Shown piece by piece: positions 30,700-58,447 of a stretch of DNA of 64,000 nucleotides. Below the pieces are notes generated by a model. It was not told the origin of the DNA, made no database searches, and saw only the letters and a list, made by a program, of their open reading frames with translations. This DNA is from Zasmidium citrigriseum (lineage: Eukaryota > Ascomycota > Dothideomycetes > Mycosphaerellales > Mycosphaerellaceae). Every line of letters starts with the position of its first letter. The first letter of the stretch is position 1. The DNA lies in NCBI GenBank assembly GCA_002786025.1, contig NHNW01000022.1, positions 372,001 to 436,000 on the forward strand. Direction: 5' to 3'. The translations under genes were made by a program, and so were the position numbers.

Positions 30700-31699
30700 T
30701 ATTTGTAGTAGCTACCTCCTAAGTCAGACCCTAGCTTTTAGCGCCGGAAGCTAGGCCGCTAGTGTTCGGATGTTTTGTTCCGCGGCCAATTAGCTTCCTT
30801 GCGCAGCAAGGGTCTAAAGCCGTTTAGTAGAGTAGTAGATATTCTACGCTTAGACTAATACTAAGTTACTAGTCTTTAAGATATATACGATTTTTAAACT
30901 TAGAGGTTATAGAGTACGATAATACGAAAGTAACGATATAAAAGTTATGTTAATACGACGTTAGGAAGGGGGTTAAATAAGTCTAGAGAGTAAGTAAAGT
31001 TAGGTCTTAGTAGCTCGTAGGCTAATATTAGTATAGGGTTAGAAAATCGTAAAAATTAACTTAACTCGAGCTCGTAGAGCTAGATACTACGATTCTAACG
31101 GTATAGATACGATATCTATACGACGTTATATTATTATATAGTATATAGTTAGGGGAAATATATACTAAGCCGCGGCCTAAGGTAGCTTTCCGCTAGTAAA
31201 TATTTACTTACTCGTCCGTTATAAGACTACTAGTAATTAGTATAAAGCTTACTCGTATAGATAGTATTTTATTGTTATCTTATCGCGTTTCTACCTGCGT
31301 CGCTTACCCGCTTTAGTACTATATTACTTATAGACTATTAAGTATTTAACCCTTCGTATTCGCCCTATCTTATATACTATACCTCCTTTTATAGACTATA
31401 TATCCTTTATAGACTATCCGTCTATATCCCTATCCTTAATAGAAGGTCTCTATTACTACTATAGCTATAGTAGATAGCTAGCCTAATCTAGAGCCTAATC
31501 TCTCGTTAGAACTATCTAACCTAACGGAAAACGAGTACTCGATACTACTACTAGATAACTAATAGGAGTATAAGTAGCTAAAGTAGCTAGAGTAAGGTAA
31601 TAATAAGGAAGAAGACTAGCTAGCTAGTACTTAGTAACTAGAGCTAGCTAGCGCTTAGCTAGCTAGCGCTTAGTAACCTAGTACTTAGTAACTATAGGT

Positions 31700-34600
31700 A
31701 GCTAGCGCTTAGTAACTAGAGTAACGCGACGACGAGGGAGAAGACTCTAATAATAACGAGGAAGAGTTAGACGCTAGCGACGTAGACGAGGACGAAGACT
31801 ATAACTTCGAGTCTAATAAGGAAGGTAATAGTAATATAAGTAATAATAAGCTTAATAACGAAGAGCGCTTTAGCGACTACTAATACCCTTTTAGTAACGA
31901 CGACTTCGAGGACCTCCTAGTAGGTACTAATACTAATACTAACTCGGAGGTTCTAGCTAGCTAGTATCTAGTAGATAACGACTATCTATCTCTTAGACTA
32001 CTACCTTACCCTACCCGTAAGTATTACCTAGTAGCTTAAGGTAGTTAAGGTAGTAGTAGTAGTATATCGACACCTACTCTAGTAGTATTAGTAGCGTTAG
32101 AAGTAGGTCGTACTACCTACTCTCGCTTCTCTATATCTAACCTTATAGCGGTAGTAGTAGTAGTAGTAGTATAGAACTAGGCCTAGTCTCTAGCTCCCTC
32201 GATAGGTACTAGAGCTACTAGAACCCCTAGAGCTACTAGAACGCCTCGAGTCCGCGTAGAGCGTCTTAATAAGGATAAGAAGATAAAGGACCTCCTACGT
32301 CGTATAAAGGCCTATAAGATTATACCTACGGAATTTATTTAGTAATAGACTAGTCTAAAGGGAATAAAGACGTACCGCCGCTATATAACGAAAGTCGTTA
32401 ACACCTTTAAGTATAATAAGTTTATAAGTAGTATAGTCCTACGTAGCGAGTTAAAGAGGTTAGTAGGTAAGGAGTTCTTCGATAAATATAATCTAGAAGA
32501 GAGTATAGCTCTACGCGACCTTAAGAAGATAGAGGGTATAATTAAGGACAATACCCCTAACTAGTACTAGCTCCTTTAGAGGCTATTACTAAACCGCCGT
32601 ACCTATCGTCGTAATATCGTTAACTAGGATCGTCGTAATATAATAGGTAAGCGGACTACCTTTATTACCGCTATTATTATAAACTTAATCGTATTATAGA
32701 AGGCTTCTTAGTTTACGAAGTCTATAGGCCTAACTATAGTTATACGTAGCGTAAAGAGAGAGATTATAGAGTTCTATAATAACTAGGGATTTATCTATAG
32801 TTACTAGACTAGCTAGCGGATTATAAAGGAGAACATAGAGGAGTCGAGGAGGTATATTAAGTATATCGCCCGTAATACTAAGAACTAGGATATTATATAC
32901 GACAACTTTAATCGCTAGTAGACTTATTAGTACTAGACGGTTAGAGAGACTAATAAGTAGATTAATATAACGACGTCCCTCCTACGTATTAATCTATATA
33001 TTCTAGAGACTAGCCTTCTATAGAGTATATTATATTATAATATACTACTTAATAAGCGCCGTATTATCTATAAGATCTATAATAACTAGTATAATAAGGA
33101 TATCTCGAAGTACTTTATCGACTAGGCCCTCTTCTATATATATAAGAAGGAAATTTAGCTTATCTTTAAGTACCTTCTTCGTCGTAGAGAGTAAGGTAGT
33201 AGCGAGTAAAGTAGTAGCGAGGAAGATAATAGTAGCCGTACGTAGATAGAGAAAGATATCCTTACTATCCTCTAGACCTTTATCGACGAGGATAACGAGC
33301 TATATCTAAGATATAGTAACGTTATTCGTACCCTTAGTACTCGTAATAATTAGGTAGTCGAAGGATAGGACTTTACGGATATAATCGCCCGTCTACTAGA
33401 CTAAGAGGATATCGACCTTATTAGTAAGGGACCCTATTAATATATTATATCGTATCGAGACCCTAAATACCTTAATACGATTAACTCTTAGTAGTAGTAG
33501 GATAATCTATCCGTACTAAGACGTCTAGCCTAGCCGTATATCGATCCCCTAGAGATAGTTAAAGCCGAGGTATATTCCTTAGATATCTCGATAAACGATA
33601 AGATATCGATTAAAGGTATAAAGAAGGTCTATAACGATATCTTCTAGGAGTTCCTTAGCCTTAAGCCTAATAGAAAGAAGGGTAAGCTAGTATACGAGGA
33701 GTAACTTATCCCTATATCTAGTAATTAATTAACGACTAAGCGTAGTCGCGGTATAAAGGTAGAGAATATCGAGTACGAGTATCTATATAACTATAAGTAG
33801 TTCTACCTACCTATACCTACTATATTCTATACTATTATAAATGCTTCCTTTATAGTTATTCGTACTTACTAGGCTAGAAGCGAGGCTACTAATCCCTAGA
33901 AGAAGAAGAAGTATAGCTCTAAGAAGGATAGCTCTAAGAATAATACTACTAAGGACAATACTATTAAGGACGATAGTAGTAAGTACCTCGACTATTACCT
34001 TAGTAATAATACTAGCTTCTAGAAGATTAAGGGATACTTAAACTAGAAGCCTAAGTTCTTCTTATACTAAGAGCTACTATTTAATAGCTATCGTACCCGT
34101 ATTAACGCGCTCTTTATATAGGTACTAAAGGATCGTAGTCTCTACTTAGAGATAGAAGTAGTAGTAGAAGATAACTAGCTAGATAGTATTAAGAAGGTAG
34201 TTTAGGAGTTAACGCCTAAGGAGTACCTAGAAATTATTAACGAAATCTATAAGAGAGCCTTAACTAATACCGCCTAGTAAGGACTAGGTAATAAGGCTAA
34301 GACTAAGACTAAGGGCTAGGGCGAGGGTACTAGTAATAGTAATAGTAATATAGAGATTCTAGACGCTCTACCTACTAATACTCTAACGCGGCCTAATCCC
34401 TTCTTTACTACTATATATCGAATATTAAAGGAGATTAAGCACTTTTAGACTCTAAGGAAGGCTATCCGTATAGAGGATATTAGGTATATTAGTCGTATCG
34501 TTAACTACCTTATTATCTAGTTTCTTAGTACTAGCTAGTATAACTACGCCCGCGAGATACTATACTTTAAGTAGTTACTTAATATATCCGATCCTATCTT

Positions 34601-35250
34601 ACGGAAAGTAATCCTCGCGTACTATCTTATTAATCCCTTAGGGAAGAGAAGTAAAGCTATAGTAACTAATAAGCTACTTAAACTCTATAACCTCGAATAC
34701 TCGGAAGATATTAAGTAGAACGCTAACTTAACCTACGACTTAAAAGCGACTTTCTAGAAGGTATCTAGTAATCGCGAGTAGGCGCGGGTATTACGAGAGA
34801 TATTTAAAGCTAGCTCTAGTATAAAGGGTAGTAATACCTACTCTCGTAAGGATAATTCGCTCGGCGTATTTAGTTTAGTAGACAAAATCTTTACTAACGG
34901 CCTCGTAAAATAGTAGAAGATAAGTAATAAGGAGCGAGAGAAGCTTAGTATTTCGAAGGATATCTAGTAGGCTAGTACGGAGCTATTACGTTCTAAGGTC
35001 GCGGATCTTAATAAGGCGAACAAGATATTATATAAGCGTAGAGCGATAGTTTTAGATACTACTATATTCGACGACCCCCTCGATAGCGCTAATATAAGAG
35101 AGTAGACTAAGTAGACGGACTATAGACTAGTAGATATAGCTATAATTAACGAGGGCGACGAGGTCTTTACGGATTTCGTTAAGGACGGTTAGAATATAAT
35201 AGTAGAGTAGGTAGTTAATAAAGCTAGGTAGTAAGGTAGTCGAGCTCGAC
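31700..35250 (+). pseudogene. RIP-killed DUF6589-like transposon protein
   Basis: Within the island one plus-strand frame (best at about 32270-33500) stays protein-like for hundreds of codons, and its many stops sit where Gln or Trp codons (CAG, CAA, TGG) would become TAG/TAA by C-to-T change. Readable stretches include SIGLTIVIRSVKREIIEFYNN and, further on, IIYDNFNR. The pattern of a helical block followed by YDNFN resembles fungal DUF6589 proteins, which are linked to mobile elements. The assignment is tentative; the exact limits are not known. Confidence 0.4.
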
Positions 35251-36577
35251 TAAGTATAGATTTTAGATTTCGTTATATACTAATAGACTTTATTATACGC
35301 TATTTCGGTACTAGCTAAGCTAGTAGATTAACTTCGTTATACGCTAGGGTAGATAGATTAGTAGCGATAATAGTAAGGGATTAGACTTTATTATTCGTAG
35401 GCGAGCGAGTAAAGGTTAGCGATAATAGGAGTCCTTATAATAGTAGCGTTTCTTTAAAAGTATATATATATATAGTCTTCCTTGTTCTTTCTTCTCTTTA
35501 CGTTATAGTAATATAGTTACTACTATTACTATTACTATACTACTTACTATCGTCGTCGCCTCCGCCCTTACTATCTACTTACGCTAGCGTAGTAGCTCTA
35601 AGAATAAGAATAAGAATAAGAATACCGCCGTTACCGCCGCGGTTATAGTATACGAGATATAGAAGCTACTAGATAATAAGTTTATAGCTATAATAACTAA
35701 CTACGCTATAGATAGTATCTCGTAAGTCTAATCCTACCTAGCTAAGCTAAATTAATCTAATCTAACTTTTATAGAACCGCCGCCGTATCTTACGCCGCCT
35801 CGCCTACTATCGTAGCTACTATTAGTAAAGAAGAGCCTAAGTCGTTATCTACGCCTATACCTATCGTTACTCGTCCTATAGGCTCGTCTATACTAAATCG
35901 TCTACGCTAGAGGAAGGCCGCTAAGTAAGTCGTTATAGGCTAGTTAATTCGATAGCTACTAACCCTATCGTAGAGAACGTAGTTAGGTATAGTCTTAGAA
36001 TCTAGAGCTATTACTACTATAGTATAGTAGTAGTAGTAGCTAGTAAGCTCTCCGCTACTACCGTCTCTACTACTACTACGCCGTAATAGCCCTCTCCCTA
36101 GTAGTCGGTAGAAGTCTACTAAACTACGCTAGCTAGAGATAGCTAGCTAGTATTACTTAATTACCTACTAGGTAGATAGGTAGGATATAATTAAGCTCCC
36201 TCGTTAACGTATACTTACGTACGTTAGTCGAATCGAAGAGACGTCTACTAGAGAGGTATACTAGCTAAAGTATAGTCGTTATAAGGAGAATAGATATACG
36301 TACTCGTAGTATACGTATAAGAATATTAATAGGTTTCGGATAGCTAAGTACGCTTAGTATATATATAATAGCGTTAAATACGAGTAGATACCTAAATCGT
36401 TACTCGTCGAGTCTAGACTCTAGTCTTCTAGTTTACTATTATAGTCTTCTTATCTTCTAGCTACTTATCTTCTAGTCTCGTTAATATCGCCTTCGTTAGC
36501 TAGCTAGGTATTTAGCTTAGCTCTAGTATAAGAAGATCGAGCTAGATACCTTTATAACTACTTCCGAGTATTCCTCG

Positions 36578-36662
36578 TAGTCCTCTAGTACTCGTAGTCC
36601 TCTAGTACTCGTAGTCCTCTAGTACTTATAGTCCTCTAGTACTCGTAGTCCTCTAGGCCTTA
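36578..36662. repeat. Tandem repeat, 17-bp unit
   Basis: About five copies of a unit like ctctagtactcgtagtc with single changes, inside the RIP island. Confidence 0.75.
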
Positions 36663-38039
36663 GCTAGTACGAGCTCGTCGTTACTACTAGTTAAATCTAC
36701 CTCCTATACTATAGTATCGTATATACCGTCTACTTACAATTATTAAAGGCCGTATAATCCCCGAGCGAGCTCTAGATTCTAGCCTTTTATATACTAAAGT
36801 TTACCTATTACGTTATATTAGCGTAAAAGCTATATATTTCAATTAAAACCTTACCTACTATCCTTTATTACGTCTTAATAGCGTAGTAGTATAGCGGGTG
36901 CCGAACGTAAAGTCCCTCGTTCGAATCCTAATATATATACGTAGAGTTTAGGTAGACTCTATATAGTAGGGAAGGTATACCTATCCTTATTACGACGAGT
37001 ACCTAAGTAGGAAACTTAATACTAAATCGTCCTTATTACGATACAAAACTTAATACTAAATTATTATTACCTAGATTAACGTCCTTATTAGACGTCCTAC
37101 TCTTCGGAGTTAAAACCGATATTAGATAAGCGTCCTTATTAGACGCCCCGCCTACTATAGAGTAGTTAAAACCGATAGAAGGTAATACGTACTCGGGATA
37201 GGCTCCGTACCTTACTATATTATTAGACTATATAAGTTAAGGCTTAAGCCCTCTCTAAGGAGTAAGGAGCCTAATATAACTATACGTACTCTAAGTCTAT
37301 ATACCTTTATTAAATCTAATCGATCCGCTCGCTCTTCTTTAATATACGTAATAGGCTCTATTATTAACTAATAAATCCTTTACTAGGTTTTCCTCCCCTT
37401 TACTTTAGTATTAGGGAAGGTTTTACTCTTTTACTAGGTACTAAGGTATAAAGGAGGTTAGCTTAGGCGTCGCTCGTCTAGTCTAGTTTCTAGTCTAATT
37501 TGTAGTCTATCTTCTACCCTTCCTATCGTTAACGCCTTAATATTATCTACCTCCTTATCTAGCTCTTTATCTACCTTATTATCTAGCTCTTTATCTAGCT
37601 CTTTATCTAGTACTTTACTCTAGCTCTTTACTCTTTTACTCTACCCCTATAAACCTTACTTCGCCCCTCTCCTTTACTTATATCTACTACTAGTATCGTA
37701 ATCCCCGTAAATCCCGTCGCTATTTATAGTAATATCGCCTAAATCTTACCTATACTAACGTTATATCGCGCTACTCGCGCTACTACCTACGCGCGACTAT
37801 AAGTTCTCGTCTTTACTCTAACTTCTTCCTTTCTTCTTTATCTACCTCTATACCTCCTCTACGATCTACTACTATAAGCCTATAATAGCGTATCGTATAG
37901 AAGTCGGGCGTAGTAGTAGTAACTAGTAGGTATACGAAGAGATTTGTCTAGCTTAATAACGTTAAAACCGAGTAGTAGGCTAGCTACTATCTACCTTACT
38001 AAATAACTAAGTACCTATAGCGGCCTATCTCGTCTAGCT

Positions 38040-38168
38040 AACGACGTTAAACTAAGCCGTCCTACTAGGTACTATTAAACCTAGCCGCTATACTACTAGG
38101 GCGTTATCTAAGCCGTCCTACTAGGTACTAACAAACCTAGCCGCTAAGCTAAGGGCGTTAACTAAGCG
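38040..38168. repeat. Tandem duplication, about 55-bp unit
   Basis: The block gccgtcctactaggtact...cctagccgct...gggcgtta occurs twice in a row with small changes and a partial flank, inside the RIP island. Confidence 0.65.
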
Positions 38169-40399
38169 GGTAGCGCCTAGCCTTAATATTAACGCTATCG
38201 CTATCTATCTAGAATCGATAAGATTCTACTTAGTTAGTAATAGTATCTTATCTTTATTATTTAGTCTTCTACTCGCCTAGGTCTACCTCTTTAGTTTTAC
38301 GGCTACTATTAGGGTACTTAGCGAGGTACCTCTCTTACCTACGCGGTCGCTCTAAGTAGGCCTAGTATAAGGGTCGACTAGCGTTCTCGCTTAGCTAGTC
38401 CTCTAAGAGGCGTAGAGTTTAGGGGCTCGGCTTAAAGCGTCCTTTAGGGAGGCTCTTATCGACGATACGGTTACTACGATATATAACTAGCTAGGCTATA
38501 GCGATATATATCCTAGTACTAATATTACTATAAAAGTTATACGCGATCCGCCTAGTACGCTTCGGTAAGGCGTTAAACTATCCGTACTATTATTACGAGA
38601 GGTACCTTTACTATATAGTCTCCTTAGCTATAAAAGAGGCGCCTAGATACTATATATTATCTAGTACCGTCGGTTACCGAGTTCTAACTCTTAAGCTTAT
38701 CTCTTAAGATACCTTAGGCTTATAAGATTAGACTTTATCTAAAGGCGTTATTAATACTATCGACTTCGTTAGAGGCTACTACTTCTAGTTATTAATAACT
38801 AGCGCCGTTATCCCTTAGCCCTTTTATATACTACCTTAGGCTACTCGAAGGTCTACTATATAGGTAATAGTTTACTTACGGAACTAATAGCTCTAGTTAT
38901 AGTAGTTTAGTACTTTACTTACTTATAAGAATATTATTAAACGTTATCCTCTATAGTATACTAATAATCTATACTACCGTTCGCGGCGAAGGGCGGTTTC
39001 GACTAGCTTCGGCTAGTTTTAATAACCTACCTAGTAGAGAAGAGGGTCTTATACTAAACTTTAGATCCTTAAATCCCTCGTCTATATATAAGGCCTCCGT
39101 TCCGCCTACCTACTTACTTTAGTAATAATAGGTAGTAGTACTATATATGTTTCTCTAGGCTAGCCTAGGGTAATAAGTATAGTAACGGGCTTAGCGATAA
39201 TAGGCTCGGCGATAATAGGCTCGGTAATAGACGCGATAGTAATAGACGCGACGGCGATAGATTCGATATAGAGCGGGTAGTTATAGGTATATAGATCTAA
39301 TAAGATAAAGTCGACTAAAGGTTCGGCTCGTAGTAGAGTAGCTATAGTTTAGTATACGATTTAGATTTCGTTATACGCGTATCTATAAGTATACGCCTAC
39401 GTAGATAATAATTTAGCGTATAACGAAGTCTAGATTAGTAATATAGCTAGCGGGTTAGAGATAGCGAAGGTGTTTAAAAAGTCTAAAGCTAGGAAAGTTT
39501 AGGAAGGTGTAAGCTATAATAATATCTACGCCTAGATTTCGTACTATCTACGCGAGTAGCTAGGCTAGTACCTTATAGGCTTCCTAATACCGCCTTTACT
39601 TTTATATTATTCTATTATTAAAACTATTAATAATAATACGCTTTTATTAATATAACCGACTATAACGAAATTATAAGTCTCTTAAATACTACTAACGCTC
39701 TTAAGGCCTTATAATCTATACGAATATACTCTAAGTCCTAGAATCCTTTAACGAGCGCCTCTCTAACTCTTAAGCTACCTCTAAGATATACGCTAGCTAC
39801 GAGGGCTAGATATAATATTACTAGAGTCGAAGTCGGCGCTACTAATAGGCGAAGATAGTATAGCGGCGCTAATACGAGATACTTAACTAGCCGATATTAT
39901 AGTACTATAAGTAGGAGAGGGAGGAGGACCGTAGGCGATTTAGCGAAAGGTATCTATTATTATCTAGTTAATCTACTCTAGAGTAAGATTATTAAGCTTA
40001 GTAATATCGCTAATATTACTAAACCTAGACGGCGAGTCTTAACGTATAGCCTTAGTTAGCCTCTCGGTAGTTAACGGCCTACTAGCTAGACGCTTATTAC
40101 TAGTACTAGAGGTAGCGTTAGAGGCCGTACCGAGACTAAGACTAGAGATAGTAACGGGTCTAGTACCCCGAAAAGCCCCTAGTACTATAGCCGTTATAGT
40201 AGCTATAACGGAACCTAGCGTCGGCTATAGAGTTAGATTAACTTAAGACTAGGCGTTTAATAGAGTAGACTTTTATATACTAACTCTTACCGAGCGGTTA
40301 AACGAGTCGTTAATATACCGACGACGATCTTCTAGTATCTCTATTAGACGAGTACCTTAGCTAGAGGTAGTACTAGAGGGAGTACTAGAGGTAGTACTA

Positions 40400-42700
40400 G
40401 AGGTAGTACTAGAGGTAGTACTAGATATACTCTAGCCTTAAGTACCTTAGCTAGTATTAGCGGTATCCTTCTTAGCCTACCGCTTACGCTTAATCTTATC
40501 GTATACTACGATAGCTTTATTAGAGATATCGTTTAACTAGGCGATAATCTTAGGGTACTACTAGATCTAAACCTTAGTAGCCTCTAGCTTATAGGCCCCC
40601 TCGATATCCTCCTAAATAACCTTAACTAACTAATCTAGCCTACCGCCGCTACTCTTAAAGGTAGCGTAGATATCCTAAAGGATAGGGTTATTAATAAAGA
40701 AGTTAGCGGGTATCTTAAATATACGAGTCTTAGTATTATTACGGAACTAGACGTCCTTCTTAGCCTACTTAGATACCTAGTCCTTAATTAATAGTATCGT
40801 ATAGGTAGGTAAAGTTCTAGCTCGAGGCGTAACTAGCTTTAGATCCTCTAGTAGTAGTTCTAGTATATCCTCGTTCTTATATAGGTCTAGATTATAGACG
40901 TTATAGTAAAGCTCTACTAGTACTAGTCTATCTAGATAAGGATAGGCTACTTAATCCTCGCTAAAGTACTTATAAAGGATAGCGACTAGATACTTACTAG
41001 TACTACCGAAACGAAGGCGCTCGTTCTAGGCTTAGCGAGCGATTAGTAGGTAGTTCTTACGCTTCTATATCTTAGTCTTAGTCTACTTCTTTACTATACT
41101 AGGCTCTTTAAAGTCCTTGTCCTCTTCGTCGTCCTTCTCGTCCTCCTCTTCGTCCTTATTATATTACGCCTCTTTACTAGGAAGGTCGGTCTAGCGCTAG
41201 GCTCGAGGGATATAGATTATAGGAACGATAATAGCGTTATCGCGATACTACGTAGGTAGACTAGAGTTCCTATATAGACGTCTAGATAGAGAGAATTCTT
41301 ACTAGTCTTAACCCGCTAGCTACTACTACTACTACTACTAGCGTTCGCGAAATAGCCGGCCCTTTAGCTCTAGTACTAGTATACGTAGTAAGGAAGTATC
41401 GTCTAGCGTACTATCTAGTAAAGCCTTCTAGTTATCGTTAATCTAGTATAGTATAAACTAGAATATAACTCTACGTATACCTAAAGCTCGCGCTATACGA
41501 CCTACTCGCTACTAGAAGTCTAATATACTCTTAGAGATAGGTATATCTATAACGATAGTAATCTCGATATTATTAACGTCTATACTATTACTCTAGATCG
41601 TAGTAGCGTAGGTAATACGATAAGTACTAGATATAAAGTCCTAGTACCGCTTCTCTTAATTAGGATTAGGGACTAGACTAGATACGAAGTAAACTACGGT
41701 ACGAACGTTAATACTAGGCCTACTACCCTAGTTATATTACTTACTTAGATCTACCTACTTAGTTAGAGTAACGAGCTAGCTACGGATAATCTAAGCGAGC
41801 TTCTTAACCCGCTTACGCCTATCTATAAAGATAATAATCTTCTTAAGATTCTAAGGTATAGCTTTACTAGCCTCGTTAACTACGCTAATAGTTACGAAGA
41901 ATAAGAAGCTATAGTAGTCGCGCTTATACTACTTCTAGGGAATATTCTTAAAGATAAATATAATATCTAGTCTTATAATACTAGCGCGTATAACCTATTT
42001 AAACGGTTAGCTAGACTAGACTACTAGAGTACTAGAGTACTAGACTAGACTACTAGAGTACTAGAGTACTAGACTACTAGGCTTCCTTATATACCTTAGT
42101 CTAGAATTCCTTATTACTAACCTTACGAAAACTAGTATACTTAAGTACGAACTCCTCCGTCTCTATAGGTAGGGTAGTAGAATATTTAATAAGTAGAGTA
42201 TATCGAGGGAGGAGCTACTATATAGTATATAGTTCTATAAACTTACTACGGAAGGATTACTACCTCTCGACTAGATAGATCTTATCTATAAATACGAGGC
42301 TAATACAATCCTATACCTCTAGCTTCTATAATACCTTACGAACCTCTAGTAATACTACTTATTTAGGACTAAGGATAAGGACCTAGACCTCGCCCTTCTT
42401 AAACTTCTTAAGTAACGTACTATCTTTCTTCCTATTTATAGTAGTAAGGTTAGTAGCGTTAATAAGAAGATTCTTATTACTAGTAATAACCCTACTAATA
42501 TCCTTAATCCTATTCTACTACTTATTACTAAGACGATTAAGTAGTAAAATCTATAGAATCTAATACCTAGTAAGAAGTAGATAGGAATAGACGATAAGGG
42601 ACTATATGTAGTTAGCTTAGGTCTATTAAAGGATTACTACTACCGCCGACTACTACTAGATTACCGCCGCCGACTACTACTAGATTACCGCTACCGCCGA
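40400..42700 (-). pseudogene. RIP-killed RecQ-like helicase
   Basis: The minus strand shows helicase motifs interrupted only by TAG-type stops. From upstream to downstream: LVFIDKIYLVER (a DEAH-box-like motif II), LLIKYSTTLP (motif III, usually TATLP) and, after ITIVIDIPISKSILDF, a stop followed by RVGRIAR (motif VI, QRxGRxxR). The order and spacing agree with RecQ-like helicases found in fungal subtelomeric or transposon-borne genes. Limits are approximate. Motif I was not located. Confidence 0.55.
42008..42082. repeat. Short tandem repeats ctagagtact / gactactagagta
   Basis: Interleaved repeats of gactactagagtactagagtactag within the island. Low complexity, probably shaped by RIP. Confidence 0.6.
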
Positions 42701-43291
42701 CTACTACTAGATAGATAAATATACCTTACTAAGCCCTATACGGGCTTTTACTAGAAGATCGTACTAGGTAAAGATAAGCCTAAAGGCGTAATCCGTCTAG
42801 AATATATTAGCCTTACGATACTCGCCTAGATATTATATATCGAGGATCCGCCTTATTCCCTTAGAAAGTAGGACTTTCTAAAGGTCTAACCTAACCTACG
42901 GGTACTATCTAATATTATATACGAGCTACTAGAATACCTCGAGTAGTATACCGCCTTCTATAGTCTAGAGACTAGCGATACGCTACTAGAAGTACTAGTA
43001 GTAGTCGTTAGGGTTAGCTAGTAACTAAACTAGTAGTATATTAAACTTTAGATAGACTCGAGTTACTATACTACGAGGAAGTAGTACTTAGGTAACTAGA
43101 GCTACTACCGCCTTTCGCTACTATACTAAGGGTATATTCTAGTACTTCTTAGTATAGCGCTACTTCTTTAACTTACTACTACTAGATATAGTATTCGTAG
43201 TCTTATCCTTTATATAGCCTCTACCCGACCTCTTAGGTAGTAGTATAATACTATCTAGATAGGGTTATCGCTATATAGGTAGGTATAGGTA

Positions 43292-43378
43292 TCTAGATTA
43301 GGGTCGCTATCGCTAGCTAGATTAGGGTCGCTATCGCTAGCTAGATTAGGGTCGCTATCGCTAGCTAGATTAAGGTCG
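43292..43378. repeat. Tandem repeat, 27-28-bp unit, about three copies
   Basis: The unit agattagggtcgctatcgct (plus agct) recurs in tandem near the right end of the RIP island. Confidence 0.75.
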
Positions 43379-43850
43379 CTCCTAACTATCTAAGTATAGC
43401 TAAGGGAAGGATAAAGGGTTCGAGACTATACTAAGATAGATTTACGACTTCCTATAGCGTTAGGGATATACTAAGTAGCTTTAAATAAGAGTAGCGGCGT
43501 CTAGGCTTACTACCTTAGGTTTAATTTACTTACTCCCCTTAGGAAGTAAATCGAAAGGTAGTAATTACTTAGAGCTTATAGAGGGTACTAGAAAGGTTAG
43601 AACTATATAGTTTATAGGTTCTAAAAGGGTAGTTATTGTCTATAGTAAACTAAGAGGGGAAATTTTAGAAGTAGTTTTTAGCTTATAAATATATCTAGTC
43701 CTTAGAAACTTAAATTTTATATATATTATTACTTACGTAGAATCTGTATTATAATTCTTTAGAGCTATACTACAAGTTACTTATATATAATTTATAGTAG
43801 TGTTAAGCTATTTAGAAATATAGATTTTAAGATAGGCGCTGGATGTCCGC

Positions 43851-44284
43851 CTGCGACCATTTGTCTTTAGGCGCTCCGCAGAAGGACATCCACCACCCAT
43901 ACTAACCGTATCAAGTCAAGTGCAAGCTATCCGTACGCTAACCACCCGCTTGGAACCGCTTCACGTGGCATCGAGTTCTTTCCTTCGTAGGACCGCGCCT
44001 GAACTTGGGAGGTAGTATGGCAGCGCCAACTTTGCGCATGCTAAACGTCTCTACATCGCAGCTCGAACTACCCCGGCAGCTCAGGGATGATTTGGCCTCG
44101 AAACGCAAGAGACCAAGAGCCCGTCTAACCTTGTCCTTCTACGTGGTAACGTGATATCTACATCCTGAAACTGGATTCGGAGCCGAAAGCTCGAAGCCAG
44201 ATAGTTGCAAAGAGCAACTTTCATACGGTTTTGTGATTGATGACCAGGCTCGATCCTCAGACCACGACGCTCTTCCACTATGGA
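43851..44284. other. Right flank of RIP island, intergenic
   Basis: Normal composition resumes at about 43840. Just inside is an inverted repeat, ggatgtcc (about 43851-43858) with ggacatcc (about 43887-43894), and a direct repeat aggcgct. These may mark an element end. No gene. Confidence 0.45.
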
Positions 44285-47066
44285 TCAACAATGTTCCACA
44301 GCATAGCCAAGATACAGCTTGCGACGATCCTCCGCTGCACGACAGAATTTCGAAGGGTTCACGAACCAAAAGCGATCCCTTGTCTTCATCCCCACGGTCT
44401 TTGTACGGAACATTGACTCCATCCCTTCCTTCGTCTTCAGCTTACGAAATTGTGAGCTATCAGACCCAAAGCTCAACTTCGCGGCATCGAGGATCAGGGC
44501 AGCGATACCGGCAGCGATTGGAGTTGCCACTGAAGTGCCTGAAGCAGGTGCCCGCGGTTTCTCACTGCTAAGCCCTGCGGCGTCCACATTCTCGCCGAGG
44601 GTTCCGATCACAGTTGCTTGCTCATAATCCATTGGTGCGTTGAAGTTGCTGAATTGTCCAAAATGATCAGTGGATCTGACGGGTGTTACCGAGATGTGAG
44701 AAGCTGGAAACCATTCTCGAGAACTTCCCCCGGAATTTGAAGCCGCTGCGAAGAACAACACTTTGCGCATAACGCTGTCAATTGCCGCCTGTATCTCAGG
44801 TGACGGTTCTCCAGGATACCCAAAAGACATTGAGACAATGTCCGCCTTGCAATCGTTGACGGCCCACTTTATGGCATTTGCGATGTTCTCGCTCGAATTT
44901 GATAAGTCCTTGGTGTCGGTAGCCACTCGAGCGACATGTAACTTGGCTCGCGGTGCAACCGTCATTAACAACGAGACCACGTGGGTGCCATGCCCGCAGG
45001 CGTCCAGCGGCGTAGTTGAGCCGGAAACGAAGTCTTTCCAGTTTGGGAGCCTTTTTCTCAAGCGAGGATCCTTGAAGAATGGGCTCCTCGCATCATAGCC
45101 ACTGTCCAAAACAACGATACAGGTTCGTGGCCAGTCTGGCTTTTTTTCCAGGCACGTAATTATATCTTCGTTGAGCGCGGAATTGGCGATTTGATCTAGC
45201 CAACTACGGGTCTCGCTGCTCAAGCTGTCAGACAAGACTACTGTTAAGCGAGAGAGAATTACCTGTTAGGCTTGGACATGAACGTCCCCTTGCAGTCGAT
45301 AGATTCGGCTGAGACTGCAGGGGCACTGAACCTTGGTTGCCAAATTGTAGGTTCTGGGCCAGGATCTTGTTGTCGGGCTATGTGTACCAAAGGCGTCAGC
45401 ACACGAGTTCGAACGATTTCCCGACGGCTTTCACTTGAGCCACAATTCTTGAATATATTAATCTCGAAACAAGCAGAAACGGCGTCTCTGACAAGGTTTC
45501 GGGCCTCTTCTGAGGTACAGTTCAGGTCAGGCCAGCTCGGACTTTTGAGGATCTTCCTGCAGTCAGTGAGCTCTGTGTTCAACAACTCCTCCCAAGCTGT
45601 ATCAGTTGCCGCTTTGGTATACTTAGAGTCGTTTCGCAAAACATCAACTAGGAGTACACCGAGAGCGAGGATGCGAGGAGCCGGATGCACCACGCCATAG
45701 GCGCTCGGCAGGCTCTCATTGTGCATCAGTCCATTGGATTCTGGAGGGACCCGGAACGGCATGGTTAACAACGGTTCTGAGGAATCGTACAAGGATTCGT
45801 TGTCACCTTGCGGCATGAAATGGATGACATCGGCAGTCCAGCGTACGGACATCCAGTCTGACTGATAGTATTGCCAGAAGGATTCGACAAGATGGCAAGC
45901 GAGTCTCAGCCTCGCCATAGTCGGCAGACTTTGCTCTCGTAACGCTTGTGTAAGTGACAATTCCGGCCCGATTTGAAGCTTCTGCTCCGCGTCCGCCTCC
46001 TCTACGTCGGATTCAAATATGCAGTTCTGGTCGATATGCACGCAGAGATGCACAGGTCCAAGTTTCTTTAGAAGGAGACCACAAAGGTTGTCGCGCCGCT
46101 TTTCCGGGGCCGGGAATCTACCTTGTACCGTGTGGGAGCCTTCGACTCCTTGTATCGTGTGGGAGCCTTCGACTCCTCGTGCAGTGGGAAAGCTTTCGAA
46201 GGTCGTTGATTTGGCTCGTTTACTTTTCGCCACCTTTTTGCTATTCATGCTTAACACATGGGAGGTCATCACGTGAGAATGGTGTAACATACCATGATAC
46301 CTTCAGACGAAGACGCTGTCTTTGCCCTTTACATTCAGCCATGTGCGACTGCGATGCCATGAACACTGTGTTAAAACAATAGCGCCGCGGGTTCGCTTCC
46401 GCCCAGGGCTCGTCCGTAACTTCGAGAACAGTCCCGAGGCGAAGACTTCCGTGGTGCATCCTCTGTTCTAGTGGCATTGTCGATGGTGACGGGCAAGCAC
46501 ATTCGATATGGTCTCGAAGAACCATATAAAGGGTTTGTGGCACATGCTCTGGGAGCTCAGGGGTAGCTTCCGCAGAACTGAGTGACTTCACGTCAATACG
46601 CCGGCTACCGGTATGGGGCAAAAATCTGTCGATGTTCAGCAATAAGCTCTCGCTTGCATCTTCGTCTTTCACGAATTTTTGCAGAGATTTGTCCAGTAGC
46701 TTGTAACCTTTGGGGGTCGTTTTCCCTTCCTTAAGCGCTCGCAGTACTGGGAAGGTCTCTGTGTTCACCGGGACATCTTGCCGCCACTAGGTCCTTCTGT
46801 CAGCTATGCGACCAGCACAATCGGAGCGGCAAAGAGCTTCGCACCGTGCACACTCTCTCGAGGTCTATCGAGAGCTTCTTGACCTTACTCAGGGAAACAC
46901 AAAGGCGGTCTTCATGTGTTGCGATTGTAAAGAGTAACGTGCCCAGATTGGCAAGAGCACGGCTAGGAGGTTGGCCTTGCGTAGCCAGCTCGATCGCGAG
47001 ATGCCCAAGGGCCTTAGCGGAGGCGAAGACAAAGTCTGGCAGGTCCTCGTCTCTTAAGACTCTCAT
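44285..47066 (-). CDS. DUF7580-like plus subtilisin-like serine protease (S8)
   Basis: Four exons: 47066-46854 (donor uncertain, 46845 also fits), 46786-46293, 46240-45263 and 45224-44285; phases close to give about 874 aa. The intron before the protease is short (38 bp). The middle (TMARLRLACHLVESFWQYYQSDWM, and further to PAPRILALGVLLVDVL) resembles DUF7580, a fungal N-terminal module often fused to proteases or STAND proteins. The C-terminus is a peptidase S8 with Asp602 (VVLDSG), His640 (CGHGTHV), oxyanion Asn725 (AAASNSGG) and Ser793 (SGTSVATPIAAG), so all catalytic residues are present. No signal peptide is seen: likely an intracellular signalling protease. It is head to head with the fusion gene at 47570. 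Confidence 0.78.
46131..46184. repeat. 27-bp in-frame tandem duplication
   Basis: Two copies (46131-46157 and 46158-46184) differ at a few positions and encode GVEGSHTIQ and GVEGSHTVQ within exon 3 of the S8 gene. A partial third unit (GRFPAPEK side) is not convincing. Confidence 0.8.
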
Positions 47067-47569: not shown

Positions 47570-50500
47570 ATGGACTTATCAGAATCGTCGAAGATCGTGG
47601 AGTCAGCGAAGGCATGTCGCAGCGCGCTGGAACATGCTATCACGATCGGAAGCGACAATCAAAGAGATTGGGCGCAAGCTCGCCTCATTGACTTCAATCT
47701 TTGGGCAGCGGGCACCGGCGTCTTTGCAGGTTCGAGGAATGCATTGCACGAACGCCTTTCTGGGCATCCAGACATTCGCGAGGTGGTGGTCGCAGTACTC
47801 TCAGTGCTGGCCTCGGTCATTACTGGCTATGCGGAGGTTGTAAGTCAGGGTGTCAGTCAGGTCTCGTGTAACATCGACAGTGGGCCAGCTGATTTGGAAG
47901 AGCCACCGCGATCGTTTTCACCTTGGTCTTCTGACGATGGAGATGATTCACGCACTTCCCTCCAGGAAGTCGATCCAGCCGGCTCTATGGATGGCGTTTC
48001 GACCTGCTGTCGCGACGCTGACAGGCTTGTAGATAGATTACTAGACCTGGGGGTGCTGATCAGGCAATCCGGCCGAGCCTCGAGGTTGTCCAAAGCTGAT
48101 ACCTCATTCAAAGCAACAAAGTATAAGAGATTCCAAAGTTACCTGGAGACCTTGCTTTTGGCTCGCGGAATGCCAGACGGCACCACCGATGAAGTAGTCA
48201 CCACGACCCGAGCTGGCCGAGTGAGTCTGGAACAAAGACTCCTAATCGATGCGAACTTGCGGAGGCGGCACCGCTTTCTTTTTGCACGAAATAGGGCGGT
48301 AATCCTTGAAAATAACCCAACGGCAAGGTCATACGACGCCCTTGACAACACGACGCAACTGCCCAGCTTTAGACCTCAAGCAACAGCCAATGCACAGGAG
48401 GTCCCTCCGACGACCGGCCCACTGGAGAATGCACGGTACGACGGGGTACAAAGCCAGGGAAGCCTTTCCCGTCCCGAGACGGCGCAGCTTAAGCTAGTAG
48501 CAGACCAGAATTGGACAGCTCAGGAAGATCGAGCTCGACAAGGTCCGTCTACACAGCTTACACTGGTTACCAACAAAGTCGTATACCCCAAACCACCGCC
48601 GGTCGGCCCAGACATTAGGGCGGCCACCTGTCCCTGTTGCTTTGAGACTTTACCGGCCGCAACCATGAGCAAGCGCAATACATGGAAGTAAGTCTTTATT
48701 CCCTTCGTTAGTGGACCTATTTCCTGACGAAGAAAGGAAACACCTCGGAAAGGATGTACAACCATATACGTGCGTGGTAGCCGATTGCTCGAAGATTGTG
48801 AGGACCTTTGAGCGCAGAAGTCAATTGGAACAGCATATGGAGAACTGCCATAGAGTCATTGACCACTGGCAATGTCCTATCTGCGAGCCAAGTGACCATT
48901 ACAACGCAGAGGAGCAACTCACGGAGCATCTCGCACTCAGGCATTCCAAAACGATCCGTCCGGAACAGAGGAGAATTATTGCCGAGATGTCGTCGCAAAA
49001 GCTATTAAAGCTTCCACAAATCTGTCCTGTATGTTCCGAAAGTGGGCAGGGACACGACCAAAAATCATTCCTGGAGCACTTGATGATTTGTATTCACGCC
49101 TTTTCACTGCTAGCACTCCCCTGGAACAGGTCGACGGATAAGTCAATCCTCCCTCAAAGTGTGTACCGTGATATCAGACATTGGTTAGATGGCCTGGATC
49201 CGCCGCAGTATCATCCCGCCACAACAGAAGAGCATCATCACGAGCTACCATTCCCACCAGCTGACAGCAATGGCGAGTCAGATGGCGAATTCAGCCCACT
49301 GCTGCGACATGAATACTTTGACGAAGGCAGCAGCGACGCCACCGTGACCGAACGGAGTGAGGTTCTCGACTCGTCTTCCGATTCTCAAGCCCGCCAAGCT
49401 ACGACTCTTGGGCCTTCGCAGTGGTTCGAGCGATTGCAAAAGGAGGTGCATAGCTTACTCGATCCCCAGGATGCTGGTCCTAAGATCAAAGTAGCAATTC
49501 TCGACACCGGAGCCAACTTCGACAAAACTCAAACCAGGGCCATCCGTGGCGGACGCATCACGGACTGCAGAACGTGGTGTGATACACCCCATAGCAAAGA
49601 CGGTCGACAAATTTTGAAACATGATGGTCTTATCGAAGACGCCGACCGAGACACGGACGAACATGGCACCCACTGCCTGTGGACGCTGCGAAAAGTTGCG
49701 CCCAACTGTGAGATTTTCGTAGCACAGGTTTTTAAAGACCGGCTCGAAGTCAAAAAAGGTTATCCCACTGCAGCGCAGGCAGACAGGATTGCAAGTGTAT
49801 GTCTCTTTTTGCGAACGGATGCTGAATATCTCTAATCCAGTTTAGGCCATTGATTATGCCGCACATGTCGAGCAGGCAGATATCATCACCATGTCCTTCG
49901 GCTTCCAAGACGAGTCGGATGTGATCAACGAAGCCCTCTACCGAGCTGCGTCAAGGAAGCACAAACCGTGCTTGCTCTTCGCTGCCGCCTCAAACTTTGG
50001 CGCAAACGACGACGTACAATGGCCGGCGTCACATCCTCAGGTCATATGTATACACGCCACGGACTCTATTGGCAACCTATATCCACGGAACGTGACACCG
50101 GAGTCTTCCCGGAAAGAGTTCGCAACCCTTGGCGTCGGTGTGGAGGCATTCGTTGGTCATGCTGCGAGACAAGCTTCGAAAAGCGGAACTTCTGTGGCCG
50201 CTCCCATCGCAGCAGGGATTGCAGCGTTGATCCTTCACGACGTCCAGAGCAATCGAAGTGCGTACATTGATTCCCTTCATAAAGGGAGTCGGATTCAGCG
50301 AGAGGTCATTTACGACAAAAAAGTGAGAAAGCTGCGCACACATGAGGGCATGTGCAGGGTGTTCATGGGAATGTCCGTGCAGAGGGATGGCTACAACTTT
50401 CTTCGACCCTGGAAAGTCCTACGCAAATACGAGAGCGAGGCCGACTACCTGCGAGCTCGTGACATTCTAAAGACAGCGTCTGGGCTGGATCCGCTCTTCG

Positions 50501-51228
50501 ATTTAACACCGGACAGCGACAACAGAATGCCTGAACGTCTCAAGCTCGGGTATATGCTTCCCCCAAACCTCTCACTGGTTCCGAACCGCGATGTTAAGCT
50601 TGGGATGCTATTGCCCTTGTCATACGATACGCCCAGGCTTCCAGACCCGGACTGCAACCTGACAGATTCGCCTAATTATGCGTATCCGGAAGTTACGCCA
50701 GAGGTCGAGGAGAACTGGGAATACAACGAAACCCGCAGCAAAACAGCCTCAGTGGGTCTGGGGGCCAACATTCCAATCTTGACGGCGCTCGGCGGCTCGC
50801 TTGGTTTCGATCACTCAAGAACCGAAGACATCGCCGTCGAGGCGAAGCGCGTCGAAACATTCTCGTTCACTCCAAGCTTGAAGTACATCGGCACTGCTTT
50901 ACAGCAGCCTACTGCGAAGGAGTATATATCTCAGAATCCACAAGCGCCTGTGTTCATGATCACTGGGCTAAAGGTGGCTTACGAGGCGAACATTACCTTC
51001 GGCAAAGACAGGGCAAACAAGGAACATGGCAGCCTGGGCGCGGATTTGGCAACGAGTGCAGTACCTGTCAATGTTGGGCCAGAGGCTGGGTGGAGTTCTT
51101 CTCGCGAGGTGCGCTTCAAAACCTTCAAACCTGGACCGTTCGTGCTTGCGTATCAATTGAAACGCATTCGACGAAAGAGAGACGGCACTCTGCATGCCAA
51201 GGGGTACAATTCACAGGCCTTTCTTTTC

Positions 51229-51317
<89 letters not shown>

Positions 51318-51399
51318 GGCGCCTCAGCCTACAGTGGCCCTTGAACAGCAGTGGGATCTGGCAAACGTAACGCCCGAAATGGATCTAGAGGGAGAATGA
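47570..51399 (+). CDS. Zinc-finger, S8 protease and gasdermin-like fusion, 1243 aa
   Basis: Three exons: 47570-48687, 48737-49796 and 49846-51399, with 49-bp introns (GTAAGT...GAAAG and GTATGT...TTTAG); phases close. Residues 1-350 are helical with a Ser-rich linker. Residues 354-500 carry C2H2-like Cys/His pairs (CPCC, TC...DC with H, CPIC, CPVC). The protease has Asp629 (VAILDTGAN), His682 (DEHGTHC), Asn776 (AAASNFG) and Ser842 (SGTSVAAPIAAG), all intact. Residues 956-1190 resemble the 29.4 kb protein: GVGLGANIP-type strand region, APVFMITG (1093-1100) with LKVA, a Gly-rich hairpin and PFVLAYQL (1157-1164). A run of 29 Asp follows. I infer a sensor-protease-effector in one chain. Autocleavage or cleavage by the neighbouring protease is possible but unproven. 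Confidence 0.75.
51229..51315 (+). repeat. (GAT)29 microsatellite encoding poly-Asp
   Basis: Twenty-nine perfect GAT codons encode residues 1188-1216 of the fusion protein. Pure repeats of this length are prone to slippage, so the length should vary between strains. The related 29.4 kb protein has a mixed acidic run at the same place. Confidence 0.9.
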
Positions 51400-54891: not shown

Positions 54892-55010
54892 ACATTCGGC
54901 CACAGGCACTTGAAAACAGACGATCCCGTCCGCTCTCGTGTACTTAAGCAAGTGACCGCCTGATTAGTACTACGGTGGGTGACCACGTGGGAATACCGGG
55001 TGCTGAATGT
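54892..55010 (+). rRNA. 5S ribosomal RNA gene, complete
   Basis: A 119-nt sequence starting acattcggcc and ending gctgaatgt; the two ends pair (acattc/gaatgt) as helix I. Conserved inner blocks are present: gaaaacag, gatcccgtccgctct, tacttaagcaag and ggtgggtgaccac. It stands alone among protein genes, as 5S genes do in filamentous ascomycetes. Transcription by Pol III uses the internal control region. It lies 134 bp upstream of, and divergent from, the M3 peptidase start. Confidence 0.92.
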
Positions 55011-55025
55011 TTTGACTTTTCTTTT
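55011..55025 (+). terminator. Pol III oligo-T terminator
   Basis: tttgacttttctttt directly after the 5S gene; runs of four T end Pol III transcription. Confidence 0.7.
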
Positions 55026-55089
55026 GCTCTTCTTCCTTCCTTCACATCTACCACATTGCAGCTCTGCTCCTTTATTTGCTTCTCATTAA

Positions 55090-57790
55090 GCTATTTTTCA
55101 GCGGCATTAACCTCGAGACGATTGAAAGACTATAGTATCTAACCCCTAGTATACTATTAAACCGTATAGAGTCGTATGCTTTAGATATAGTATTATTAAG
55201 TTACCGTAGGTTAAGGATCTTGCCTTATAGATACATACAAACCTACTATAAACCTATACTAGCTACTACCGCGTATAATATTAATTCTAGTTATAGGTAA
55301 GTAGGTCTACTAAATAAGGAAAGGTAAGGGTACGATAATATATATATATATAGCTAAGAGGGCGTAATAACGGGTATATTAGATAGTAGCTAGTAATTAC
55401 TCTACGACGTTATAGTTATTTACCTTACTACCGCTAGTAGTAGTAACTAGCTTAGAGGTATCGTTATCTACTTCGTCGCTTTCGCCGTAGACTACCTTTA
55501 AGATATCTATTAGTTCCGTAAAGTCGTTATCTTCGAGGCGATTATTATTAATATTATACCTAATACGGAGGTTCTAGTAGTAGTAGATAAGCTTATAAAG
55601 GGTATCGTCGCCTAGGCGATTACGACGAAGGCTATAGATAAAGCTAAAGGTACTAAAGTTACGCTCTACGGTACTAGTTATTAGATAAATCGATAGTAAT
55701 AGTATATAGAGCTCTACGAGGTCTAGATCCTTAGTAAGGAAGTTATTATACTACTACTTAATTATAGATAATCGTATACCGCTAGACTACTTTACGTTAT
55801 CTTTAAAATAGCTATAATAGTTATAAAGGTCGAAGAGTCTAGCTAGTAAGGTACCTACTTACTCTTTAACCTCTACCTAAGACTCCTTATTAGTACCTAG
55901 TAGTTAAGAAGAACGCCCTTAAAGCTAGTAATATTTAATAAGCTACTTAGTAAGGCCGTAGAGCTTGTTATATAATAGTAAGCTATCGCTATAGGTAGTA
56001 CGCTCTTAAGGGTTAGCTAAGAAAGCTATAATTATTAGAGGGTAGTAGATTTCGTCCTATCGAAGGGATATCTATACTTTAAGCTCGTTAGACGTTAATA
56101 GGCTAGTTTTCTACTTACGATAGTCGAGCTATTTAAAGTTACTATATACCTTAGCTAGGCTAGGCTTATCGCCTTTAAGGGTAATAGTAATATAAAGGAA
56201 TAGCTCTATAAGCTTAATATAATCCTTTATACTAATCTAAAAGGCTAGATCGTCGATTTACTTAGCTACTACCTACTACGCCTTCTTTTAATTAGAGCTC
56301 GCTCTATTAGTAATCTAGTATAAGTAATTCTACTATAACTTAATAAGCTAGACTCGGTTATTATATATAGACTAGGCTATATAGAGTCTACCCTACTAGC
56401 GAGTATTATTTAGAGCTTAAAATCGCTATACTTTATCGCCGCTAATCTCTCTAAGGACCTTATAGGGTAGGTAGGTATTCTTAAAGTACTAGGCGATACG
56501 GCTAATCTCGTAGTAGGTATAGTAGACTTAAAACTCGTTAGATATCTCGTTAGTAAGGAGTTTAAGTTAGTAAGAGTAGTAGCTAATAGTAATAATCGAA
56601 GGGTAACGTTATTAGATCTAAAGGATAGAGTTTATTAGCGTTTAACTTTTATTAGGAAATTAATTAAAACGCTAAAGTAAAATTTAATAGTAAATAGCGC
56701 TAGTACCTAAGGTAAATATACCTTCTTCTACGCTAACTTTATTACTACCTCGTTATCCGTCGTAATATAGATAACCTTACCTAGATATTACTCTATAACC
56801 TTTAGTACGCCGTTAGTATAATTGTCTATATTAGTACGAGCCGCTATACCCCTCTTAGAGGCTACGAAGTACGTCGCCCGCCGAGTTAAGAGTAGGAAGT
56901 TAACGAGTAGCCGCCTATTACGATTAGACTACCTATCCGTTAATAACGACACTCTCTTACTCTTAGCGATATTAGCCTCTATCTTAGCTTTTAGAATATC
57001 GTATAGGGCTAGTAGGTAGTTGTACTAGATAGTAAACCTTAAAGGGTACTAGAAAGCTAGTCTTAGAGCCTAGATCTACTTCTTAAAAGTAGAGTACTTA
57101 GTAGTATATAATAGTAGGCTAGTAGTAAAGAGCTATTTAGATAATAGGTAACTAATTCGCTAATTCTCTTAAGTACTAATATTATTAATATAGCTAACTA
57201 TTCTAAGAAGGATCCTCTACGCTAGTAGCCTCTACGCTTATACCTTACCCTCTAAGCTACTATCGCCTTTAACCTACTTATCTCGTACCTTATAAGGCTA
57301 ATATCTACGCTATAACTACTCCGGTAGCCGCTTATACGCTAGAAGGTGCTCTAATACCCTCTTACGCTCGTTAGACGTCTAAACGTTACTATAATAATAG
57401 TAACTTACGTTAGGGTAGTAGTAGCTATAAGTCTAGTCTCTAGTAACTTAAGACTAGTAGTAATAGGTATTCTAGTAACGCTTACGAGTATTAACTACAA
57501 CCGTAGGTATAGTAGTATCTAGTAAGAGCTATTATTACTAGGCGATATTATTAGATATTATAAAGAGTTAGATTCGATAATATTAATAAGTTAAAGGCTT
57601 CTAAAGATAGATAATAGGCAAATCTAGGAAGTTTAGCCTACGTTTGCTAGTAGACTAGCTATATTTTATACCTACGCTCCTATACCGTCCTAACTACTAT
57701 TACTAACTACTAATAACCCCTTTATAGGCCTATAATAACGAGAATATAATATATTAACTATAAGAGGCGTTAGAAAGTAATATACGAAGG
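55090..57790 (-). mobile_element. RIP-degraded hAT transposon
   Basis: A second block nearly free of CpA and TpG. On the minus strand the end nearest 55.4-55.7 kb reads LLSIYLITSTVERNFSTFSF, then RRNRLGDDTLYKLIYYY, which is the hAT C-terminal dimerisation domain pattern (S-x-x-x-ERxFS...RNRL). Upstream the frame is broken by TAG/TAA codons at positions expected for Gln/Trp. The 5' side near 57.5 kb should hold the DNA-binding part, but I could not read it. Terminal inverted repeats and target-site duplications were not found by eye. Limits come from the composition change. Confidence 0.65.
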
Positions 57791-58447
57791 GTATGTTAAT
57801 GGACTAGAAGAGGTGGGTGGCTGGCCCGCCCTAGGCATGCCAATACAGCCAATTATGGGTGAGATTATGTGGATATAGTGGGAGCCGCTCCCAACTGCCG
57901 TGGCCACTGTGATTACACGCCATATGGACACCGTGACCTAAGTGGGTCCACATCACTATTTAGATGGCCAACTTTCACTCCATGAGGTGCTCTTCCAGCA
58001 CTGGGTCTGGCGACCGAGGGGCGATTCTCTGACCGGGCCGACACCGGTATGCCGACACGGCATCCACAAGCACAGCATGGTCTGAGAATGCGCCACTGCA
58101 TGTCTTGCGCATGTTGGCTTGACGAAAATGCAGCTACTCCCCTGATTGGAAGGTACCGGAGGCATCAAAACTTGTTCTCCGATGTGGCATGCAACACAAT
58201 GGCACAAGGCGCAGGTACGACATGTTCAGACACCTGCAGCTCATCGCGGCCACAGAACCCTGTGCGTCAAAGACATCGAGGACAGGATGCTGGACCAGGT
58301 TCACGCTCGTGATGTCCACTCACAGCGTGGCGCTATTTCCAGTTGCCGTGGACTGCCTCGATGTTATATCGTCCTGTTTATGACCACTCCTATCTGCTGC
58401 CCGAAGCTCCATAATCCATATTCGGTTCTCCAAAACCCCTGCTCGTC
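57791..58447. other. Intergenic, promoter of the next gene
   Basis: Normal composition again. Frames on both strands are without motifs. The first exon of the gene at 58448 may lie here. Confidence 0.4.

Follow-up and report, generated by a model that had tools for sequence, protein, structure and literature searches.

A predicted single-chain fusion of a zinc-finger-like region, an S8 protease and a gasdermin in Zasmidium citrigriseum

Introduction

Can a single fungal gene encode both a gasdermin and the protease that cuts it? The question is raised by a gene at 47570-51399 (+ strand) in a 64-kb stretch of the Zasmidium citrigriseum genome (the window, positions 372001-436000 of contig C64 in an assembly of 44.4 Mb and 148 contigs), whose predicted protein runs from a zinc-finger-like N-terminal part through an S8 protease to a gasdermin. 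Positions given without a contig name are relative to the window; C54, C65, C69, C79 and C116 are further contigs of the same assembly. The gene structure of the window is fungal, and the two fused parts have their nearest named kin among proteins of Cercospora and Cladosporium.

In the excerpts of the literature to which all citations below refer, fungal gasdermins and proteases are presented as two-gene units (PMC10197012, PMC12881547; also PMC10989679), and about 80% of fungal gasdermin genes are clustered with a protease gene (PMC10197012, PMC12881547). HET-Q1 (278 aa) and HET-Q2 (388 aa) of Podospora anserina are separate proteins, and HET-Q2 reportedly cuts HET-Q1 after Phe238 of its 278 residues, removing 40, a reaction that has been rebuilt in Saccharomyces cerevisiae (PMC10989679). 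Which cue activates the protease receptors is treated in the reviews as an open question (PMC10197012, PMC12881547). The explanation that we moderately favor for the window gene is a fungal gasdermin pathway on one chain, in which a zinc-finger-like sensor part, a HET-Q2-like S8 protease and a gasdermin were brought together by gene joining and act by the mechanism proposed below.

Gene Structure and Protease Domain

The gene lies where the preliminary description had placed it and consists of three exons (47570-48687, 48737-49796 and 49846-51399) that encode 1243 residues without an internal stop. Its two introns are 49 nt each and have the borders GTAAGT...AAAG and GTATGT...TTTAG. The end of the first intron (48736) is the only listed in-frame partner of its GTAAGT that spares the first zinc-finger-like Cys/His stretch, and a paralog on contig C69 resumes at the same place, in agreement with this exon border.

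The Peptidase_S8 domain (PF00082, E-value 5.8e-15) spans residues 621-859 (49479-50244) and is interrupted by the second intron (49797-49845). The catalytic triad is intact, with the residue numbers given in the preliminary description: Asp629 (49503-49505) lies in ILDTGANF, His682 (49662-49664) in DEHGTHC and Ser842 (50191-50193) in GTSVAAP. By these motifs the domain is a member of the subtilase family and a predicted protease. Pfam places no other family above its cut-off in the protein, and the remaining listed matches fall on a poly-Asp tract near the C-terminus; no NB-ARC, NACHT or repeat domain is found by Pfam.

The N-terminal part encoded by exon 1 (residues 1-373, 47570-48687) has a single other match in the genome, a patatin-containing protein on C69 (35% identity, 1.1e-54). 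The zinc-finger-like Cys/His region, at about residues 354-500 (48629-49120), is interrupted by the first intron (48688-48736). It is weak in Pfam, where the zf-Di19 match (E-value 0.0017, 19.0 bits) stays below that family's cut-off of 27.5; the Cys/His pattern and its flanks recur in the C69 paralog.

The C-Terminal Block as a Gasdermin

The C-terminal block contains a predicted gasdermin pore-forming domain (residues 954-1187, 50527-51228). The relation to gasdermins, at first suggested by sequence patterns only, is borne out by profile searches and by the predicted fold. As a single sequence the block matches RCD-1-1 (4.1e-4), its profile A1 matches a characterized fungal gasdermin (8.6e-6), and its profile A4 matches RCD-1-2 (2.2e-12), RCD-1-1 (6.5e-11) and the HET-Q1 pore (7.9e-4) among PDB sequences. 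PF04598, the family named in the preliminary description, gives no match to the block, and no Pfam family matches 50437-51231 at E-values up to 10, a range in which matches weaker than about 0.1 are mostly lost to the HMMER filters. Gasdermin membership therefore rests on homology to RCD-1 and HET-Q1 and on fold. The predicted structure shows long hairpins, as had been anticipated; the first 13 VIA rows listed in the structure comparison are gasdermins throughout, with RCD-1 on top, and Foldseek relates the predicted fold to gasdermin with an E-value of 8.2e-12. Sequence and modeled fold together support the assignment of the block to the fungal gasdermins, for which pore formation and killing would be the expected activities. 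The best structural and sequence match is to RCD-1-1 and RCD-1-2 of Neurospora crassa; unlike these, the fusion has a protease attached and a tail present.

A stand-alone 278-aa protein encoded in the window at 29404-30240 (- strand) had been noted to share a pattern with the block. The two align by pairwise blastp (2e-4) and by phmmer (2.9e-9 in a one-target search), and each matches RCD-1 structures on its own, so that a chance likeness is rejected. The closest relative of the 278-aa gasdermin is its paralog on C69 (39-40% identity), and its identity to the fused gasdermin is 32% over 108 residues. The fused gasdermin shares 67% identity with a stand-alone gasdermin of Cercospora beticola.

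Unfused Relatives and the Junction

How the two domains came to be joined is suggested by their relatives. Fungal sequences were searched as protein clusters. A search with the gasdermin block recovers nine proteins at E <=1e-3, all of which are stand-alone proteins of 266-277 aa with a start Met aligned to Met954 of the fusion. A search with the S8-plus-gasdermin region, in which the best 7,999 candidates by shared words were scored, matches 45 proteins at E <=1e-10, and in 44 of them the match ends within fusion residues 856-945. The linker, which reaches from where most S8 homology stops to the former start of the gasdermin, comprises residues 940-953 (50485-50526), so that some 14 codons, or about 42 nt, separate the end of the S8 part from Met954. 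On C69 the S8 and gasdermin genes are separate, lie in the same order on one strand, and have 266 bp between the S8 stop and the gasdermin ATG. A one-base error cannot account for an open frame with a linker of about 42 nt where C69 has 266 bp; the intergenic DNA is gone. Judged by these borders, the fusion is a derived form and its junction sits at the limits of the former genes.

The one S8 homolog that carries gasdermin sequence is P0033, a predicted protein of Fusarium gaditjirri (894 aa) with DUF7580, S8 and a gasdermin segment that is recognizable from about residue 690 on (blastp 2e-6; profile 4e-13). Like the fusion, it presents S8 and then gasdermin sequence in one annotated protein; unlike the fusion, it has DUF7580 in place of the zinc-finger-like N-terminal part. 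Its S8 domain breaks off just past the motif of the catalytic Ser, and the N-terminal part of its gasdermin is missing. With both domains short at the join, it looks like a gene model spliced over two adjacent genes, and P0033 is probably such a bridged model rather than a second natural fusion. We take it as evidence that this Fusarium has genes for a DUF7580-S8 protein and for a gasdermin in tandem, as far as the annotated protein allows.

The same relatives bear on whether the window gene could itself be two genes, with the gasdermin translated from Met954 of a transcript of its own (initiated at an internal promoter within the S8 coding sequence) and the protease transcript ending elsewhere, or with intergenic DNA lost in the assembly. 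The start codon would still work if the nine homologs are a guide, the C69 pair shows the tandem arrangement with its spacing, and, to judge from P0033, two such genes can be spanned by one gene model. The DNA of the junction, however, runs through 50430-50528 without an in-frame stop. It has 49 GT-AG pairs (41-151 nt), not one of which joins a GTnnG donor to a YAG acceptor; we thus reject an in-frame stop or a consensus intron concealed there. The 42-nt linker leaves little space for a promoter, the loss of a stretch in the assembly would need to preserve the frame and leave no stop behind, and the domains of P0033, unlike those of the fusion, are truncated at the join. We therefore regard two genes as unlikely; the single-chain fusion proposed in the preliminary description is supported at the level of DNA, and one protein would be its expected product.

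Long proteins were also searched with this gasdermin (1,044 candidates scored). The only result is P0055, a 736-aa metagenome open reading frame in which HEAT repeats run in frame into a gasdermin of the same subfamily, of which the N-terminal three quarters are present. It resembles the fusion in having this gasdermin in frame behind another large part, and differs in that it has no protease and is truncated; it may be a second kind of fusion or a product of gene calling. Since this search missed P0033, its sensitivity is limited and absence from it proves little.

Paralogous Cassettes in the Genome

The fusion gene belongs to a cassette that recurs in the genome. Divergent from it lies a gene for a DUF7580-S8 protease (44285-46302, - strand, for the main two open reading frames; likely 5' exons extend to about 47111), whose triad is intact by eye, and beyond this lies the 278-aa gasdermin (-). 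No mention of DUF7580 was found in the literature searched. The genome, searched with three of its four gasdermins, has four gasdermin loci in all. At C69:240401-250300 a gasdermin (-) and a DUF7580-S8 gene (-) are followed by a divergent zinc-finger-like protein (+) whose patatin domain is matched on two open reading frames (2.5e-6 and 3.2e-6). At C79:255500-265400 a gasdermin (-) lies tail to tail with a DUF7580-S8 gene (+), from which a zinc-finger-like gene diverges; its frames, with introns judged by eye, run into NB-ARC (2e-4, just under the cut-off) and TPR. The genes of the window cassette are ordered as on C69, but a repeat of about 13 kb lies between gasdermin and protease. The three paralogous cassettes thus differ in the C-terminal part of the zinc-finger-like protein, which is patatin, NB-ARC-TPR or S8-gasdermin.

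DUF7580 matches occur at seven loci, and in the fetched stretch or the window a zinc-finger-like relative is nearby at six of these, the exception being C116. The two genes accordingly form a recurrent divergent pair in which the C-terminal part is variable. Further divergent zinc-finger-like/DUF7580 pairs lie at C65:176000-185900, C65:195801-204000 and C54:732000-746000. These stretches contain none of the listed S8 matches; a C2H2 finger is present in one of their proteins and a ULD_2 ubiquitin-like domain in another.

The repeat (30300-44000) is AT-rich and mutated by repeat-induced point mutation (RIP), with a RIP index (CpA+TpG over ApC+GpT) of 0.00-0.19 in 1-kb steps across 31001-44000; across the genome its piece 34000-38000 is matched 77 times, counting the piece itself. 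A second strongly RIP-mutated, AT-rich stretch lies at 55000-58000. The fusion gene shows no RIP signature, though RIP-mutated repeats flank it on both sides. The DUF7580-S8 gene, the three-gene cassettes and the repeat that splits the 278-aa gasdermin from its likely protease are additions to the preliminary description. Apart from this repeat, the DUF7580-S8 gene and the 278-aa gasdermin fit a cluster of the HET-Q1/HET-Q2 type; such a cluster consists of two separate adjacent genes, whereas the fusion is one open frame. A further open reading frame of 711 aa, at 25939-28074 (+), encodes what may, by its motifs, be an ADP-ribosylglycohydrolase-type protein.

The fused S8 domain is 49% identical to its counterpart in a DUF7580-S8 protein of Cercospora kikuchii and 35% to the neighboring S8 of the window. 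A tree of 49 rows places it as sister of the C. kikuchii domain (100/100), and the neighboring DUF7580-S8 as sister of the C69 S8 (100/97), not grouped with the fusion. With their Cercospora kin, both fused parts differ from the local pair. A recent tandem duplication of the local S8 or gasdermin as source of the fusion is rejected on the tree of the S8 domains and on the identities (35% vs 49% for S8, 32% vs 67% for gasdermin).

This ancestry also bears on the possibility that the partners act in trans, the fused S8 on the 278-aa gasdermin or the DUF7580-S8 on the fusion, in which case the fused gasdermin would be a bait or brake rather than the main pore former. A second S8 gene and a second gasdermin are indeed present in the same cassette, and the fusion gene diverges from the DUF7580-S8 gene just as the zinc-finger-like genes do at C69 and C79. 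Yet the closest outside relatives of the fused S8 and gasdermin are the Cercospora proteins and not the neighboring pair, and the fused gasdermin keeps its own cut motif. We hold such a decoy role to be about as unlikely as two separate genes.

Candidate Cut Sites and Proposed Mechanism

All nine gasdermin homologs contain an AFLF motif, followed by 29-40 residues; in the fusion 56 follow. The last Phe of the motif, Phe1187 (51226-51228), is the candidate P1 residue of a cut that would remove an inhibitory tail. In the five homologs of 277 aa this Phe is residue 237 with 40 residues behind it, a position close to that of Phe238 in HET-Q1, where 40 of 278 residues are removed (PMC10989679). Right behind Phe1187 follows a perfect (GAT)29.7 microsatellite (51229-51317), which encodes the poly-Asp tract of the tail. 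The nine homologs have few acidic residues where the fusion has poly-Asp, and the length of the array may thus differ between strains. The tripeptide LFD occurs twice in the 1243 residues, in the tail and in the linker (residues 943-945, with Phe944 at 50497-50499), where 0.003 occurrences are expected from composition. The C79 gasdermin has ALFDD at the tail site. This pattern suggests two candidate cuts by which the attached protease would free the gasdermin at both ends.

For the single-chain pathway, we propose the following origin and mechanism. A tandem unit of S8 and gasdermin, which Cercospora and Cladosporium relatives make as two proteins, would have become attached to a zinc-finger-like gene. 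That gene would have belonged to a cassette made up of gasdermin, DUF7580-S8 and zinc-finger genes, and the S8 stop codon and the intergenic DNA would have been lost. The N-terminal part would sense a cue, a task in which the divergently encoded DUF7580-S8 partner may share, and clustering or a change of shape would free the S8 domain. This domain would cut after Phe1187, in cis or between neighbors, and so remove the acidic inhibitory tail; perhaps it would also cut after Phe944 and release the gasdermin from the protease. The gasdermin would then oligomerize in the plasma membrane and kill the cell. Alternatively, the gasdermin could work while tethered, or a neighboring protease could cut it. 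That the fusion is a self-contained death switch, as the preliminary description put it, is a role that we infer. A bolder version is a pyroptosis-like circuit in one gene, with two self-cuts at Leu-Phe|Asp (Phe944 and Phe1187), in which the zinc-finger-like gene is a receptor module whose effector (patatin, NB-ARC-TPR or S8-gasdermin) is swapped beside a conserved DUF7580-S8 and gasdermin pair; we hold this version to be doubtful.

Several points weigh against the single-chain pathway. The fusion is read from the DNA of one genome, and its transcript and protein are deduced from that reading. The gasdermin models have low mean confidence, with a predicted local distance difference test (pLDDT) score of 44 when the disordered ends are included and 56 when trimmed. 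The linker LFD was spotted post hoc and occurs once. The tail site has no LFD in the C69 gasdermin (GFMGKDD) or the 278-aa gasdermin (AFLHHDD), so that the AFLF motif is not universal. The GAT repeat in the tail may be unstable, and if the linker stays uncut, the parts fused ahead of the gasdermin could impede its insertion into the membrane. The 45 S8 homologs provide no clear second case of a natural S8-gasdermin fusion, and neither do, at the limited sensitivity of that search, the 1,044 long-protein candidates; the fusion may therefore be an event of a single genome without proven constraint.

The last point leads to the reading that the fusion is real and useless, a recent and decaying accident with no function as a unit. 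It would explain why no intact second example is seen among the searched sequences and why the tail carries an expanded GAT repeat. It is at odds with 1243 open codons, an intact triad, conserved gasdermin residues and cut motif, and a coding sequence that has escaped the RIP signature of the repeats around it, and we consider it the least likely of the readings discussed.

Relation to Known Systems and Significance

The closest known systems are HET-Q1/HET-Q2 and the Q2L protease-fGSDM two-gene clusters, with which the fusion shares an S8 protease, a fungal gasdermin and the profile match to the HET-Q1 pore, along with a conserved Phe before the tail whose place resembles that of Phe238 in the five homologs of 277 aa; it differs in being one chain with a zinc-finger-like N-terminal part. 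Sensor and protease also stand on one chain in fungal NOD-like receptors (NLRs) with a protease effector domain (PMC10197012), and MLKL-like domains are fused to gasdermin-associated proteases (PMC9612521), so that a protease of this kind coupled to a domain that acts on membranes has a precedent. Unlike these, the chain described here carries the gasdermin itself and has none of the NLR-type domains sought by Pfam. The excerpts of PMC12881547, PMC10197012, PMC10989679, PMC9815663, PMC11760362, PMC13304501, PMC12799240 and PMC9612521 contain no description of a protease-gasdermin fusion, though the original survey may list one. The parts are of known kinds, and it is their joining in a single chain that appears new within these excerpts.

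If the single-chain form is natural, the physical linkage would show which protease belongs to which gasdermin. It would also offer a compact construct that joins sensing, cutting and pore formation, with a clear prediction of the cut sites. The cassettes, in turn, draw attention to a third gene family: the zinc-finger-like proteins, with their exchangeable effectors, may be receptors in fungal gasdermin cell death.

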